From: Fibrobacter sp. UWH4
GTDB taxonomy: Bacteria > Fibrobacterota > Fibrobacteria > Fibrobacterales > Fibrobacteraceae
Length of the DNA stretch: 64,000 nt
NCBI RefSeq assembly: GCF_900142475.1
Contig: NZ_FRAY01000002.1
Span: forward strand, 372,001 to 436,000
Direction of reading: 5' to 3'
A program made the position numbers and the translations under genes. This document shows, in pieces, positions 3 to 7,762 of the stretch. Each line of letters begins with the position of its first letter. Position 1 is the stretch's first letter. The notes beneath the pieces are model-generated. The model made no database searches. It was given only the letters and a program-made list of their open reading frames with translations, and was not told where the DNA came from.

Positions 3-1238
3 GAGGAAGTCTCGTGGAAGGGCCAGACCGACATCGCCGAATTCTACAAGCGTAGCGGACACTACCCCGCCATTGGCGGCTTCGATATGCTGTTTGCGGC
101 AGGCGGCCACCATGAAGAAGGCTGGTTCAAGGGCTACACCGAAAACAACTTGCTCATGACCGAAGACTTGTGGAACATGGGCGGCATTCCGACTTATACT
201 TGGCACTGGAAGGTCGGCGAAGACACCGTATTCTACACGCAGGGCACTCCCGCAGGCTTTAACAACCCCGGCTGCACCGAAGGCGTTATGGGCACTTCGA
301 ACACAAATACCTGCTTTAACTACACCAAGGCTTTCAAGGGCGAACAATGCCAGGAACTTGATGAAACCTCACAGGAATACAAGGACATTGTCGCCGACGT
401 GGACATTGTCTCGGGCTACTTCAAGCAGCTGCAAGACAAGGGAATCGCCGTCGTATGGCGCCCCTTGCACGAAGCAAGCGGTGGCTGGTTCTGGTGGGGT
501 ACTGCAAGCCCCGAATGCTATGTGCAGCTGTACCGCCTGGTATTCGATCGCATGGTCAAGACAAACAAGCTCACCAACCTGATTTGGGTCTGGAACATCA
601 ATACCGACCCGAAATTTGGTTACGACTACAGCGCTCTGAATGCAGCATGGTACCCTGGCGATGAATACGTGGACATTGTCGCTGTTGACATTTACGACCC
701 GCTGAATGACCACAATTCTGCAGCCAATTACTACAACAAGATTGTGAGCGACGTGGGCACAAGCAAGATGATTGCCTTGAGCGAAAACGGAGCCATTCCG
801 GATATTGACAGCATTGCCGAAGACAAGGCCTATTGGAGCTACTGGATGACCTGGAGCCAGACCTGGAGCGGAAATTTCTTGGAAAAGACTCCGACAGACA
901 TGTGGAAACGCAACTTGGATGACGAACGCATTATCGCCCTCGACGACATGCCCGGTTGGGACAATGTGAAGGCCGACATCAGGATGGCTCGCCGTATAGG
1001 ATCCAACAACCTGGCCGTCAATATGCAGGGCAACCAAGTTACCGTATCGCTTGCTCATGCCGGAGCAGCAAGCATTGCCCTGTTCGACTTGCTCGGCCAT
1101 AAAGTCGCAAGCCTCGCCCAAGGAAACCTGCCTGCAGGAACCACTGCATTCAATCTTGACGGTATCGCCAGCGGCCATTACATTGTGCGCGTCAAAGTCG
1201 GCAGCACCAGCCTCGCAAAAAAAATTTCACTAAAATAA
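3..1238 (+). CDS. GH26 endo-beta-1,4-mannanase, secreted (5' end outside window)
   Basis: The reading frame is already open at the window edge, so the N-terminus and signal peptide are missing. The fragment matches glycoside hydrolase family 26, which cleaves beta-1,4-mannan by a retaining mechanism. The acid/base region reads RPLHEASGGWFWWG, with the Glu codon at 471-473. The nucleophile region reads ALSENGA, with the Glu codon at 783-785. The last roughly 70 residues form a small beta-rich domain (LFDLLGHKVASL ... HYIVRVKVG ... KKISLK) like type IX-secretion C-terminal sorting domains; similar tails occur on four other secreted proteins here. A strong terminator follows and the next gene is a GH5 endoglucanase, so this is a plant-wall-degradation locus. 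Family call is firm; exact substrate (mannan, gluco- or galactomannan) is inferred. Confidence 0.9.
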   Translation, partial: EEVSWKGQTDIAEFYKRSGHYPAIGGFDMLFAAGGHHEEGWFKGYTENNLLMTEDLWNMGGIPTYTWHWKVGEDTVFYTQGTPAGFNNPGCTEGVMGTSNTNTCFNYTKAFKGEQCQELDETSQEYKDIVADVDIVSGYFKQLQDKGIAVVWRPLHEASGGWFWWGTASPECYVQLYRLVFDRMVKTNKLTNLIWVWNINTDPKFGYDYSALNAAWYPGDEYVDIVAVDIYDPLNDHNSAANYYNKIVSDVGTSKMIALSENGAIPDIDSIAEDKAYWSYWMTWSQTWSGNFLEKTPTDMWKRNLDDERIIALDDMPGWDNVKADIRMARRIGSNNLAVNMQGNQVTVSLAHAGAASIALFDLLGHKVASLAQGNLPAGTTAFNLDGIASGHYIVRVKVGSTSLAKKISLK

Positions 1239-1280: not shown

Positions 1281-1314
1281 GCCGATTTTGAGCAAAAATC
1301 GGCATTTTTCTTTT
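1281..1314 (+). terminator. Rho-independent terminator of the GH26 gene
   Basis: GCCGATTTT pairs with AAAAATCGGC across a short loop and is followed by ATTTTTCTTTT. It lies about 40 nt after the mannanase stop codon. Confidence 0.85.
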
Positions 1315-1367: not shown

Positions 1368-1605
1368 TTACATACTTTTCATATAAAAAAGAGTCTTCAG
1401 TATGTAAAGAACCTCTTCTTTTTTTTATTGTTACATACTTTTTTCATTTTCAAGCAACTTAGTATGTAATTTTTTTCAAAAAAGAGGGGAAAACGGCAAA
1501 AAATCCCCCAAGAAACTTTCTACAAGTACCAAAGTCTCTTATTTTTGCACGGAAAAATCTGTTTTTTACATACTAACCGCACTGTTTTTAGCATTTAGTA
1601 TGTAA
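1368..1605. promoter_or_regulatory. Array of six phased inverted 9-mers TTACATACT/AGTATGTAA
   Basis: Perfect copies lie at 1368-1376, 1399-1407, 1431-1439, 1461-1469, 1566-1574 and 1597-1605, strictly alternating in orientation. Centre-to-centre distances are 31, 32, 30, 105 and 31 bp, close to 3, 3, 3, 10 and 3 turns of B-DNA. The sequence between motifs is not conserved, which argues for protein-binding half-sites rather than a duplicated element. The likely target is the downstream GH5 gene; the binding protein is unknown. Confidence 0.6.
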
Positions 1606-1809: not shown

Positions 1810-3912
1810 ATGTTTGGTATCGGAAAGTTTGGTATCGCGGTCGGCGCGCTCTCGCTCGCAAGCACCGCTGCGTTCGCCCTCCCCAAGGCGACCGAGATTT
1901 ACCCCGACATGGGTCTCGGCTACAACATCGGCAACACGATGGAAGTCCCGGGGAACCCGACTGGATGGGGCAACTCTTTCCCTGACGCCGCCTACGTGAA
2001 GGCAATCAAGGACGCAGGATTCAACACCGTGCGTATTCCCTGCGCCTGGAACAGCCACGCCTCTAACGGCACCATTAACGCCGGCTGGCTCGACTCCGTA
2101 AAGACCGTCGTCGATCTCGTCATCAACAACGGCATGTACGCCATCTTGAACAGCCACTGGGACGAAGGTTGGCTCGAAGACGAAGTCTTTAGCGGCGGAC
2201 ACATCGACCGCAACGGAAATCAGGCCACAACCGACTCGTCCAAGGTTCGCGCCCTGCAAGAAGGCTACTGGAAGCAAATTGCAGACTACTTCAAAACCTA
2301 CGACGAACATCTGATTTTCGCATCCGCCAATGAACCTGGCGTGAACGATCACCGTGGTGGTTCCGCTGCAGATGGATACACCGACAACGGCCAGCTGGCT
2401 TTCAATGAAGACCGCATGACCATCTTAAAGCGCCTCCACGAAGCATGCCTGCGCGCCGTACGCACTTCCGGCGGCAACAACGCCACCCGTATCGTGGTCG
2501 TGCAGGCCCCGCGTACCGAAATTGACAAGGTCCCGCTCCTTTCCGCGCAATACCCGACAGATCCGGCAGGCGAAGGCTACACCATGGCCGAAATCCACTT
2601 CTACCCGTACCAGTTCTCGCTCATGACCAGCGGCGACGAAAGCTGGGGCAAGATGTTCTACTACTGGGAAGACCAGACTCCGGGTAACGACGCAGCACAT
2701 ACCTGCTCTGGCTCCTCTCTCGGATCCAAGAGCTCTATCGACCAGCTGTTCAGCGGCCTCAAGAGCACTTTCTACGACAAGGGCATTCCGGTCGTGATCG
2801 GTGAAATGGGCGCCGTCAAGCGTTTCTCGCTCACAGGAGACAACCTGAAGGCTCACTTGAAGGCTCGTGCCGCCTGGTACGGCTACACAGTTGCAGCCGC
2901 CAAGAAGAACGGTCTCGTTCCTTGCGTATGGGACACCGGTGACGAAGGCGATGGTAACATGACCATTATCCGCCGCCAGGTGAACAAATTCGGCGGCAAC
3001 GTGGGTGACATTACCGACGTCGAAACTTTGAACGCCATGCGTGAAGCATTCGGCCAGGCAGCTCTTCCGGGCGGTTCCATTGATTCTCTCGTCAACCAAA
3101 ACCCCGACATTCCCGAAGGTTCCGGCAAGGGCGTGCAGGTGACTTACCAGACAGTAACTTCCGACTCCAGCGAAGTGGGTACACTGCGCATCAACCTTGC
3201 TAGTGGCAAAAACGACCTTTCCAAGTACGTTGGCATCGAAATTCGTCTGAAGGGTTCCGTCACTTCTGCAGGCCCGTGCACCAACGCAGCAAAGGATTGC
3301 GGTGAATACGGCTGGACCTCCATGGACCTCTTCATGATGACTGGTAGCAGCTGGGCATGGTTCGACGCTCCCGTACTGCAGCAGGCCGACCAAGAACTCA
3401 ATGCGTCCAAGTTCCAGACTTTCCAGGTCAAGTGGGATGACTTCCGTACCACTCCCACAGGCCTCAACTCGGTGAACGCCATCGGCTTGAACCTTTACGG
3501 CACGCAGGTCACCGGCACCATCACCTTCGACTACATCAAGGGCATCAAGGCCGACGGCTCCACCGAAATCATCGACGATTTTGACAAGAAACCGCAACTC
3601 GAAGGCATCGCCTCTGCCAAGATTGTCGCGCTCAGTGGAACGGATGCCATCAAGCCCGCAGCAGTCGCCGCAACGTCCAAGATGTTCGTGAACGTTCAGT
3701 ACGGCTCCGTTATGGCTCAGTTTAACGCCGCAGCAACCGCTCCGGCCAAGGCTATGCTCTTGAACAGCATGGGCCAGGTGATTGCACAGCAGAATTTCAC
3801 CGCAAGCAAGGGCATGAACACAGTTGAACTTTCGAGCGACTACCGCGGTCCGGCCGTACTCATGGTCAAGCAGGGCAGCCAGCGTTACATGCAGAAGGTG
3901 ATTCTGAAGTAA
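1810..3912 (+). CDS. Secreted GH5 endoglucanase (cellulase) with C-terminal binding-type and sorting domains
   Basis: The start is set by AAGGAG a few bases before ATG and by a signal peptide ending near residue 23 (LASTAAFA). Residues about 30-400 form a GH5 catalytic barrel: GYNIGNTMEVPG, then TVRIPCAWNSHA, acid/base Glu175 in SANEPG, and nucleophile Glu332 in VVIGEMGA. This pattern resembles the endoglucanase-type GH5 subfamilies. Residues about 430-610 form a beta-sandwich-like region rich in aromatic and polar residues, possibly a carbohydrate-binding or accessory module, ending in IIDDFDKKP. The last 70 residues (LLNSMGQVIAQQ ... YMQKVILK) are a sorting-type C-terminal domain. Retaining hydrolysis of beta-1,4-glucan outside the cell is expected from the family. 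The gene stands alone between a terminator and a large upstream regulatory region. Confidence 0.9.
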   Translation: MFGIGKFGIAVGALSLASTAAFALPKATEIYPDMGLGYNIGNTMEVPGNPTGWGNSFPDAAYVKAIKDAGFNTVRIPCAWNSHASNGTINAGWLDSVKTVVDLVINNGMYAILNSHWDEGWLEDEVFSGGHIDRNGNQATTDSSKVRALQEGYWKQIADYFKTYDEHLIFASANEPGVNDHRGGSAADGYTDNGQLAFNEDRMTILKRLHEACLRAVRTSGGNNATRIVVVQAPRTEIDKVPLLSAQYPTDPAGEGYTMAEIHFYPYQFSLMTSGDESWGKMFYYWEDQTPGNDAAHTCSGSSLGSKSSIDQLFSGLKSTFYDKGIPVVIGEMGAVKRFSLTGDNLKAHLKARAAWYGYTVAAAKKNGLVPCVWDTGDEGDGNMTIIRRQVNKFGGNVGDITDVETLNAMREAFGQAALPGGSIDSLVNQNPDIPEGSGKGVQVTYQTVTSDSSEVGTLRINLASGKNDLSKYVGIEIRLKGSVTSAGPCTNAAKDCGEYGWTSMDLFMMTGSSWAWFDAPVLQQADQELNASKFQTFQVKWDDFRTTPTGLNSVNAIGLNLYGTQVTGTITFDYIKGIKADGSTEIIDDFDKKPQLEGIASAKIVALSGTDAIKPAAVAATSKMFVNVQYGSVMAQFNAAATAPAKAMLLNSMGQVIAQQNFTASKGMNTVELSSDYRGPAVLMVKQGSQRYMQKVILK

Positions 3913-4051: not shown

Positions 4052-7000
4052 TTACAGCACCGAAGCGGAATCCAACGCAAAGATTTCGCCTAATTGCTTA
4101 TCATCCATGTCGGCAAGCCAGGTTTCACCGGCGTTCACCGTCATCTCGACGACGGCCTTTTTGGCTTCGAGCAGCGCGTCGATTTTTTCTTCAAAAGTAC
4201 CCTTGGTAATAAAGCGGTGTACCTGCACATTCCTGGTCTGCCCAATACGGAACGCACGGTCCGTCGCCTGCGCTTCGATAGCGGGATTCCACCACAAGTC
4301 ATAGTGAATCACCTGCGAAGCGGCGGTCAAGTTAAGACCGGTTCCTGCCGCCTTGAGCGAAAGGATAAGCACCTTGTCTTCGGGATCTTCCTGGAACCGA
4401 CGCACCATTTCGTTGCGTTGATTCTGTGTACAGCCGCCGTGGTAAAAATCCGCCTTGATTTGCAATTCGCGTTCAAGCGTTTCTTGCAGTAGCTCGCCCA
4501 TTTCGCGGAACTGCGTAAAGATGATAGCCTTTTCGCCCTGTTCCTGAATAGAACGCAGCAAGTCGAGAAGCATCCCCAATTTTCCGGAATCTTCGACCTT
4601 CGCCTCCCCCGCCTTCAAGTAGGTACGCGGGTGGTTGCAAATTTGCTTGAGCGCAAGAATCATCTGGAGAATAAGTCCCTTGCGCTTGAAAAGGTTGCTC
4701 GCGCCAGCAGGAGCCGCAGAAGCAGGCGCGGCATCCGCGCCATCGGCAACCGCGAGCACATCCGCACCGATATCCATTGACGGACCTTCTTCAAGCAGTT
4801 GCAATTCTTCCATAAACTTGTCGAGGATCTTCTTGTACAGCGCCGCCTGCGACCGCGTCAGTTCCGCATACTCGTTCTGCTGAATCTTGTCGGGCAAGTC
4901 ACTGATAATCGTCTTGTCCGTCTTCATACGGCGAAGCATAAAGGGAGCGGTTATCTTCTTGAACTTTTCAGCGACCGCCTGGTTTGCATTCTTCTGGATA
5001 GGCGTTTCGTACTTGTCGCGGAATTCCAGCGCCGATGGCAAAAAGCCACGGTTGCAGAAATCCATAATCGTCCAGAATTCCATCAGACGATTTTCGACTG
5101 GGGTTCCGCTCATGGCAATCTTCATCGGAGCTTTGAGTGCGCGAATCTTGCGACTCTGTTCGCTGTCGGCATTCTTGATATTCTGCGCTTCGTCGATTAC
5201 GATCACGCGCCAATTCAGCTTTTCAAGTTTCTTGAAATCGAGGCGACACGTCGAATAGGTCGTAATCAGCAAGTCTGCATTGAATTTTTCCAGCTTGCGG
5301 CCCGCCCCATGGTAAGTAAACACCTTGAGTTCGGGCGCAAACTTTTTCACTTCCATCTGCCAATTGCACAAAAGTCCCGCCGGCACCACCACGAGAGCAC
5401 GCCCTTCGGCAAGGCGACCTTCCTGTTTCAGCTTCAAGAGGAAAGCGATTACCTGGAGCGTCTTTCCAAGGCCCATGTCGTCTGCCAAGATGCACCCGAA
5501 ACCCATCTGCAAGTTCTTGTACATCCACGAATAACCGCGCATCTGGTAAGGGCGAAGCGTCGCGTTCAGGTTCTCCGGTAAATTCGTCTCGGTTTCCCCG
5601 CGCCACACATCCAGCTGCTGCTTTAGCCCGTCAGTCATATCGACAGGGATGTCGTCGCATTGCCCCGTCAGGCAAGCCTGCAGAAGTTTCGCCGTCGAGG
5701 GAATAAAATCCTCGGAAGCATCATCCACATCGGAGTCCGCAGCAGAATCAGTGGCGCCGTCAGCATCCGCAGCCTCACCCGCAGAATCCGCGTCATCAAC
5801 AGCGCCATCGGCAACAATCGCACCTCCGGCCTTTTTCTTTTCGCGTTCGTCGATACGCTGCTGTAAAAGCGCAAGATCGTCCGCCGTATATTCTATGTAG
5901 CGGTCCTTGTACTTGAGGAGCCCTTCGGCATCCTTGGCAAGCCGCATGAATTCCTCGGCGGGAATTTTTTCGTCGCCCAGAGCCACTTCCCAGTCAAAGT
6001 CCAGCAGGTCACCCGCGGTGAACGCCCCGATACCAAGGCTTCCCTTGAGCTTCATCTGCGTCTTGGGGCGTGCAATTTCCTTGAGGGAACGCGGCATCTC
6101 GGTCACGATGCCGAACACCTCGAATTTCTTGATGGAATAAGTGACAAATTCCTTGAGTTCCGCGCCCTTCATCACGATCGGTTCTACCGCATGAACTTCC
6201 AAGTATTGCTTCATCGGCTTGAACGTTTCCGAGACGCAGTTGAGCACGTTCATCAGCGACAGAAGCCGCGGATCGCTATTTTCAAAGAGGGCCTTGAGAG
6301 GTTCGCGACCGACCGACGATTCCACGAAAACATCCAGGGCAATTTCCTTGCCAAGTTCCGAGCAGCGGAAAATAATCTTGTGGTTGAATTCCAGCGAATT
6401 GTAGACGGAGAACCACGCCTGAATCTTCGACGGAATCTTGAGCCCGTTTGACGCCAGTTTTCCCGACTTGCAGTCAAAGAAAAATCCGAGCAGGTTTTCG
6501 TGGGTTCCCTTCTTGTAACTCTGCGCCGTACGCGCAAAACGGAGCAGCTTGCCGATAAAAATCGAGAGGATATGTTCGGCGGCTCCGTCCAGGTCTTCGC
6601 GCAGCAAGTCACGCACTGTAAAAGCGAAATCGTCGGGAACACCCTTTTCAAGTTCTGCCACCACCGCAAGCACATCAGGAAGCATCTCCGCCGGGAGCCA
6701 GCGCACCTGCGCCGTCACGCCGTTCAGCCAGAACACCTGCGGGTAAATCGCACCGCAGCGCACCAGGTAATACGCCACCATCAGGAGCTGATGCACAAAA
6801 CGTACCGTCACATGGTTATGCCACACGCAATCCTGGTTCAGGCGGCAAAGCGCTCCCATAATATTTTCAACGGAAAGCCCCTCGGCCACCACGCGCTCGT
6901 CTTCAAGCTGGCTGAATGTCCACTGCCATCCGCGAGCATGCACCACCTGCAGGCGTTCCCGTTCCATCAAGAAAGTGTGCGCATGGTAGATTCCAAAATC

Positions 7001-7762
7001 CTGTGCAAACTGTTCAAACTTTTCAAAATGGTTGTAGAACAGGCGGCAACGTTCCAGTTCGTCAACAAAACTCTTCTTGAAATTGCCTGCGGGGCAAAAA
7101 TCCGGACAATTCGACAACATCGCCGGAAGCACATGGGAATAATCGCGCCACTCGTTAAAATTGAACTTGGGTACGCGCGGCATCTCTGTACGGTCGTTTA
7201 CCGGCAAAATCCGCACCAGAGTCGATTCGCTCGGCACATCCGATTCCACCGGTTCCGGCTTATAGTCCTTGAGGTAAGCGATATCGATTCCGTGAATCCT
7301 GAAAAGCACAAACGGGTCCGAAGAAATCATTTCACCCAGTTTCAGGAACACCGATATCACGTAACGGCAAGGAAGCGGATCCTTGCAGTCACAGTTCATG
7401 TTCACGTGGTCGCAGGTTTCGAACAGGGAAAGCCCGCACTTCGACAGGAGCAACTCAATCGAGGGATTCATCGCCTCGTTTGAAAGAGCCGTGAGCTCCA
7501 CCGGCTGCTGCTTCAGAAGCCCCACAAAGACATTGGCCCGTTCCTTGTCAAATTTCGGGAAAACGAGGTAAACATTGTGCGAACCGCCATTCGGCCCCTT
7601 CACCTCGGCCATGACGCGGTTGTCGGACACCGTAAAGGGCTGGACCTGCCCACGCCCCACATACTTGAAAGCCAGGTCAATATCGCGGGCGGACGCACCC
7701 GAAAGCAAGTGGTCTAGCCACTTCTTACTCCACCAAGTACTTCCGTATACACCATATTCCAT
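4052..7762 (-). CDS. SWIM zinc-finger / SNF2-family DEAD-like helicase
   Basis: A 1236-residue protein. The N-terminus (YGSTWWSKKWLDHLL) and a Cys/His cluster CDHVNMNCDCKDPLPC are typical of bacterial SWIM-domain proteins. The C-terminal half is a full SNF2 ATPase: motif I DDMGLGKTLQ, motif II DEAQNIKN, SGTPVENR, then the second RecA lobe with IIFTQFREMGELL, AAGTGLNLTAASQ and ATDRAFRIGQT. Such proteins are ATP-driven DNA translocases thought to act on transcription or repair complexes; the substrate here is unknown. Two low-complexity Ala/Asp-rich stretches (about residues 644-690 and 990-1020) interrupt it, the second inside the helicase core. The ATG follows a TATATTTG promoter element by only 7 nt with no spaced Shine-Dalgarno sequence. 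Confidence 0.9.
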   Translation of the reverse strand: MEYGVYGSTWWSKKWLDHLLSGASARDIDLAFKYVGRGQVQPFTVSDNRVMAEVKGPNGGSHNVYLVFPKFDKERANVFVGLLKQQPVELTALSNEAMNPSIELLLSKCGLSLFETCDHVNMNCDCKDPLPCRYVISVFLKLGEMISSDPFVLFRIHGIDIAYLKDYKPEPVESDVPSESTLVRILPVNDRTEMPRVPKFNFNEWRDYSHVLPAMLSNCPDFCPAGNFKKSFVDELERCRLFYNHFEKFEQFAQDFGIYHAHTFLMERERLQVVHARGWQWTFSQLEDERVVAEGLSVENIMGALCRLNQDCVWHNHVTVRFVHQLLMVAYYLVRCGAIYPQVFWLNGVTAQVRWLPAEMLPDVLAVVAELEKGVPDDFAFTVRDLLREDLDGAAEHILSIFIGKLLRFARTAQSYKKGTHENLLGFFFDCKSGKLASNGLKIPSKIQAWFSVYNSLEFNHKIIFRCSELGKEIALDVFVESSVGREPLKALFENSDPRLLSLMNVLNCVSETFKPMKQYLEVHAVEPIVMKGAELKEFVTYSIKKFEVFGIVTEMPRSLKEIARPKTQMKLKGSLGIGAFTAGDLLDFDWEVALGDEKIPAEEFMRLAKDAEGLLKYKDRYIEYTADDLALLQQRIDEREKKKAGGAIVADGAVDDADSAGEAADADGATDSAADSDVDDASEDFIPSTAKLLQACLTGQCDDIPVDMTDGLKQQLDVWRGETETNLPENLNATLRPYQMRGYSWMYKNLQMGFGCILADDMGLGKTLQVIAFLLKLKQEGRLAEGRALVVVPAGLLCNWQMEVKKFAPELKVFTYHGAGRKLEKFNADLLITTYSTCRLDFKKLEKLNWRVIVIDEAQNIKNADSEQSRKIRALKAPMKIAMSGTPVENRLMEFWTIMDFCNRGFLPSALEFRDKYETPIQKNANQAVAEKFKKITAPFMLRRMKTDKTIISDLPDKIQQNEYAELTRSQAALYKKILDKFMEELQLLEEGPSMDIGADVLAVADGADAAPASAAPAGASNLFKRKGLILQMILALKQICNHPRTYLKAGEAKVEDSGKLGMLLDLLRSIQEQGEKAIIFTQFREMGELLQETLERELQIKADFYHGGCTQNQRNEMVRRFQEDPEDKVLILSLKAAGTGLNLTAASQVIHYDLWWNPAIEAQATDRAFRIGQTRNVQVHRFITKGTFEEKIDALLEAKKAVVEMTVNAGETWLADMDDKQLGEIFALDSASVL

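Follow-up and report, generated by a model that had tools for sequence, protein, structure and literature searches.

Phased inverted repeats upstream of a GH5 cellulase gene of Fibrobacter sp. UWH4 probably serve as a binding scaffold for a nuclease-like protein of 273 aa, whose gene (G000:C6:92383-93201) lies outside the window, that is, the whole stretch of 64,000 nucleotides that was analysed. Judged from sequence comparisons, the array would be a REPIN-like satellite of a protein that regulates its own gene. We read it as a satellite binding array because each protein of the family has its own motif, because the N-terminal part of the protein is swapped as a cassette, and because arrays are dispersed in genomes that carry the matching gene. 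More broadly, we lean, by a small measure, towards regarding these genes and arrays as a previously undescribed class in Fibrobacter, in which a nuclease-like protein would use an exchangeable hairpin cassette to read a phased array that controls its own gene and also spreads as satellites through the genome, with more than 15 specificities in the genus.

Results

The window array consists of six perfect 9-mers at positions 1368-1605, in alternating orientation, exactly as the first-pass annotation had described them. The half-sites start at 1368 (+), 1399 (-), 1431 (+), 1461 (-), 1566 (+) and 1597 (-), with zero mismatches, which reproduces the claimed spacings of 31, 32, 30, 105 and 31 bp. 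As also claimed, no further exact copy of the 9-mer occurs in the 64 kb. The sole refinement of this original observation is a regrouping of the copies into inverted pairs. The natural unit is an inverted pair of 39-40 bp, and the array comprises three TTACATACT-N21/22-AGTATGTAA units, for which the expectation after dinucleotide shuffling is 0.00. Unit A (40 bp, 1368-1407) has its half-sites at 1368-1376 (+) and 1399-1407 (-), unit B (39 bp, 1431-1469) at 1431-1439 (+) and 1461-1469 (-), and unit C (40 bp, 1566-1605) at 1566-1574 (+) and 1597-1605 (-). The centres of A and B are 62.5 bp (6 turns) apart, and those of B and C 135.5 bp (13 turns). We annotated the array as a putative satellite binding array without strand. 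The GH5 cellulase gene (1810-3912, plus strand, Pfam PF00150) begins 204 bp downstream; it is a neighbour, and its control by the array is putative. Upstream lies the 3' end of a GH26 gene (3-1238, plus strand, Pfam PF02156), cut by the window start, and a terminator-like hairpin identified by consensus match only (1281-1303, plus strand) follows this gene, shortly ahead of the array. The GH5 gene adjoins a large ORF (4052-7762, minus strand) that resembles, by eye only, an SNF2-type helicase.

Units of the window motif measure 38-41 bp; apart from the half-site TTACATAYTAA(A) and a dyad-centred A/T tract, they have no fixed sequence. Distances between unit centres cluster at 63, 74, 84-86, 95-96, 105, 136 and 147 bp. 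This spacing corresponds to whole helical turns (113 centre distances, R=0.89 at 10.5 bp), with a Rayleigh p of ~1e-40 that is optimistic because some arrays share ancestry. Two different motifs, taken separately, gave the same helical phasing. Moreover, the half-sites of orthologous arrays have diverged by 2%, compared with 18% for the DNA between them. In the GH5 array, compared between G000 and G080, divergence amounts to 5.6% in the half-sites and ~50% in the intervening DNA, with hardly any length change. In arrays conserved between species, neighbouring bases change about nine times as much as the half-sites, and the spacing is kept, a contrast that is somewhat inflated since the arrays had been found by their motif. 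Unit geometry, phasing and half-site constraint are directly supported by these comparisons, and the helical phasing implies, as far as sequence can tell, recognition of duplex DNA.

The 3.7-Mb genome to which the window belongs, G000, contains 14 exact units, or 17 with the 7-mer core, all within six intergenic arrays; a reversed control pattern returned 0. Within the bacterial family, exact units were confined to Fibrobacter (18 of 111 genomes), and units with the TTACATAY core were found in 21 of 80 Fibrobacter genomes, many of the genomes compared being incomplete MAGs with predicted start codons. A scan for two adjacent units in one genome per prokaryote species retrieved one Fibrobacterales MAG and otherwise Fibrobacter contigs alone. 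Among the 55 arrays that we inspected, there was no overlap with a called gene. According to a codon-based gene caller, the 53 arrays with both neighbours, a few of them mutually orthologous, lie between tandem (24), convergent (16) or divergent (13) genes. The other G000 arrays of the window motif flank amtB/trpA, a tRNA pair, an SMR transporter/TfoX-like gene, nhaA and a prenyl synthase gene, and the neighbours for both motifs of this genome additionally include lptD-like, tsaE, NAD synthase and other genes. No functional theme emerged among the array neighbours of G000 for both motifs. The hydrolase genes among them are GH26 and GH5 at the window array and GH45 at one array of the second motif (L207). 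In two species, arrays with opposite spacing order occur near the same gene and tRNA region (L016, L104), perhaps as independent insertions. Nine array-flanking ORFs (at L054, L078, L094, L097, L098, L106 and L112) have in common what we take to be a FISUMP-like domain; this family is abundant in Fibrobacter, and its adjacency to arrays may be due to chance.

When genes next to arrays were clustered across many genomes, one dominant family emerged, of ~273 aa and in otherwise different surroundings and species. One array of the window motif lies upstream of the G000 member. Pfam, NCBIfam and PHROGs hold no family for this protein, and PDB sequence searches with its family gave nothing meaningful. 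A match to the end of PADLOC PDC-S68 covers its C-terminal ~110 residues (E=4e-24), and residues S167-K168-S169-E170, D201 and E216-H217 are conserved at 99-100% in 78 members. The C-terminal domain resembles a PD-(D/E)XK-type nuclease, with conserved residues as would be expected of such an enzyme; its third motif reads E-H in place of E-x-K, and neither structure prediction nor PDB sequence searches yielded a fold. The AlphaFold2 model, built from five sequences, was too poor for use (pLDDT 47), and the assignment of a nuclease fold is therefore based on sequence. No transposase family was detected in the protein at a meaningful score in Pfam or NCBIfam. Within the phylum, full-length members were found only in Fibrobacter and one sister genus, and a scan of viral contigs revealed no relative. 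A 30%-identical homologue is encoded in a human-gut 'phage' record (L268, MT839528) beside a BspA-like repeat protein, and an exact search found no array there. This homologue suggests that the family exists in other phyla. A search of the literature on Fibrobacter repeats, phased operators of nucleases and PDC-S68 found nothing relevant.

Within the 700 bp upstream of the 78 members, we found at least two motif-specific units in 70 cases and at least three in 56, compared with 2 and 0 of 78 shuffled sequences; these counts are underestimates, giving one unit for the gene of G000 and for two of its close relatives (L114-L116) where an exact scan finds two or three. In arrays upstream of family genes, the distances again fit whole helical turns (R=0.95 over 139 distances). 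Upstream arrays also occur in relatives with as little as 35% identity, each relative having a motif of its own, and more than 15 motifs were recorded, including ACCTATAA, GGGCATATAA, GGGGCGTATAA, TTACGTACT, TTACGGACT, TAGGACT, TTGTAGGC and TGCTACT. Sharing of a motif goes with similarity at residues 40-51 far more closely than with similarity elsewhere (partial r=0.66 with overall protein similarity removed); these residues form the first strand of a predicted beta-hairpin (LRVxTNHxRPQYYIV). For residues 43-56 the correlation is 0.57, a value as high being obtained in none of 2000 permutations. One locus is shared by two close species, G024 (L130) and G023 (L132), with 98% identity ahead of the array and 94% from codon ~53 until past the end of the gene. 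The middle block of ~680 bp, which comprises the array and the first ~53 N-terminal codons, is without similarity, and the motif changes from GGGCATATAA to ACCTATAA. The pair G035/G083 (L119/L122) displays a similar pattern. Such block replacement at the same locus, together with a motif switch, indicates that the array and the reading module are exchanged as one cassette. The linkage between protein and array and the N-terminal specificity module are both directly supported by these findings.

Arrays also follow the gene across genomes. Units of TTACATACT were present in 12 of 12 genomes with the matching gene and in 9 of 68 others (p ~5e-9), and units of ACCTATAA in 10 of 10 and 6 of 70, respectively (p ~5e-9), counting in both cases the gene's own upstream array. 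For a third motif, predicted from the gene, units beyond the gene's own array were found in all four genomes with the gene, and relics in six others. G061 and G075 have the gene and its array and few or no further arrays; in G040, G071 and G081, two of them less than 90% complete, we observed many arrays and found no matching gene. G000 itself has a second gene-array system, at G000:C5:39239-40561 (L018 15233-16561) and 13 further loci (L195-L207), with a paralogue (C5:39239-39952) that has a ACCTATAA array to itself, and with 42 units spread over ~15 arrays. Within G035 and G038, array copies can be aligned at 65-78% and have sharp borders that fall on the outer units. The site of array L201 is occupied in G000 and empty in G034, G056, G061 and G094; flanks have diverged, and this comparison did not resolve insertion ends or a target-site duplication. 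Altogether, the spread of arrays is directly supported.

Discussion

From these patterns we infer that the N-terminal helix and beta-hairpin of the nuclease-like protein read the DNA motif, and that the conserved, PD-(D/E)XK-like C-terminal domain may cleave DNA. Two copies of the protein, possibly as a dimer, would occupy the inverted half-sites of a 40-bp unit, which lie three turns from each other on either side of the central A/T tract. On one face of the helix, two to six such units could then bind the protein cooperatively and form one oligomeric nucleoprotein complex. The array upstream of the nuclease-like gene would control that gene, in a form of autoregulation. Satellite arrays would multiply in the genome through duplication or insertion, in which the nuclease may or may not take part, and later be held by selection. 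The most likely arrangement would be REPIN-like, with a single self-regulated protein and a population of its own sites, some of them perhaps with a local role.

The nearest organisation is that of REPIN/RAYT, or REPtron, which consists of REP doublets and a REP-associated HUH transposase, TnpA-REP (PMC3116915, PMC8266576). Both types of system have a single-copy gene beside its repeats, inverted doublets as extragenic and dispersed units, and several co-existing and co-evolving pairs of gene and repeats, including relics. However, the Fibrobacter protein, PD-(D/E)XK-like with a beta-hairpin reader, is unrelated to the HUH/Y1 transposase, and its units come in phased sets of two to six, with tens of units per genome. 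Moreover, whereas REPIN/RAYT systems use single-stranded DNA hairpins, the phasing of the Fibrobacter arrays and the lack of co-variation within them suggest that they follow the duplex helix and do not act as folded hairpins. The C-terminal ~110 residues of the protein are homologous to those of the PADLOC PDC-S68 candidate defence proteins. These are large, with models of ~1200 residues, and share with the Fibrobacter protein the C-terminal domain only; its N-terminus is the putative DNA-reading module.

Autoregulated operators with multiple sites are known from restriction-modification controllers and toxin-antitoxin repressors. The Fibrobacter genes are similar in that a potentially harmful enzyme is encoded downstream of its own phased, putative sites. 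They differ in that no common partner gene was found, arrays with the same motif are dispersed in the genome, and the units are inverted pairs three turns apart.

The first-pass annotation had interpreted the window array as a dedicated operator for a transcription regulator of plant-wall hydrolases. In favour of this view, it is relevant that the array lies ~200 bp upstream of the GH5 gene, and that a comparison of the upstream regions of orthologous GH5 genes showed it to be conserved in several species, though the left-hand gene differs in G060 and G080. A second-motif array also flanks the GH45 gene at L207. Nevertheless, unrelated housekeeping genes adjoin most arrays, the 16 of 53 that lie between convergent genes are located where no promoter is expected, and the neighbour that recurs consistently is the nuclease-like gene. 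The arrays do not precede a functional regulon, as those of a hydrolase operator should. We therefore regard dedication to hydrolases as improbable, and retain from the earlier proposal that the array is in phase with the helix and evidently cooperative, and that it serves a DNA-binding protein not described before. Its alternative suggestion, that each unit forms an RNA stem-loop, is the least credible of all, as are single-stranded hairpins. Each unit can pair and the region folds better than shuffled sequences (z=-5.2), but the whole-turn spacing follows the DNA helix and there is no Rfam match at the arrays. In addition, the half-sites vary independently at position 9, where 30 mixed C/T pairs were counted and independence predicts 37.7, and show no compensatory base-pair changes of the kind seen in structured RNA.

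Two other explanations are unlikely, to a similar degree, and have more in their favour. The protein might wrap or bridge the arrays to organise the nucleoid, its nuclease-like fold being merely structural. Small dispersed sites with a role in chromosome architecture exist, such as matS and parS, and helical phasing, A/T tracts at the unit centres, intergenic location irrespective of gene direction and purifying selection on half-sites are all compatible with this role. It is difficult to reconcile with the wide variation of array number among genomes, the absence of the family from many of them, the diversified motifs of paralogues within one cell and the invariance of the predicted active-site residues. 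Alternatively, the arrays might be neutral, MITE-like mobile repeats, spread by the protein or by recombination and functionless after insertion. Homologous copies with sharp borders in one genome, presence or absence between species, and relic arrays in genomes without the matching gene would all agree with this notion. However, half-sites change about nine-fold less and spacing is kept at arrays conserved between species, and this strong constraint at orthologous satellites argues against purely selfish copies.

If true, the preferred reading, a satellite array of a self-regulated nuclease-like protein, would represent a second and unrelated way, beside REPIN/RAYT, in which a bacterial chromosome maintains a set of short sequences linked to a single gene. 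It would also offer a natural recognition code, in which about a dozen hairpin residues face more than 15 DNA motifs with natural swaps, so that the rules are directly testable. Furthermore, it would account for repeats that stand out ahead of a cellulase gene of a rumen-type bacterium and could otherwise be mistaken for a hydrolase regulon.

Finally, some individual arrays are unusual in their composition. The longest array seen (L229, G060:C4:112665-116420) has six TAGGACT units upstream of a paralogue, with spacing alternating between 64 and 137. At G039:C70:18811-19133, the spacers of units 1 and 3 are identical and those of units 2 and 4 almost so, which indicates that arrays can grow through duplication of a two-unit block. 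Arrays in direct orientation on both sides of the gene occur at L129 (G020:C3), L139 (G025), L266 (G088) and L232 (G083), and those flanking the gene at L129 are 93% identical over 181 bp. In a satellite array present in two species (L302, G024:C8; L303, G023:C14), ACCTATAA units are joined by a unit that carries GGGGCATATAA, the sister gene's motif, as its left half-site; this array is largely identical between the two species, whereas the adjacent gene is only ~83-85% identical.
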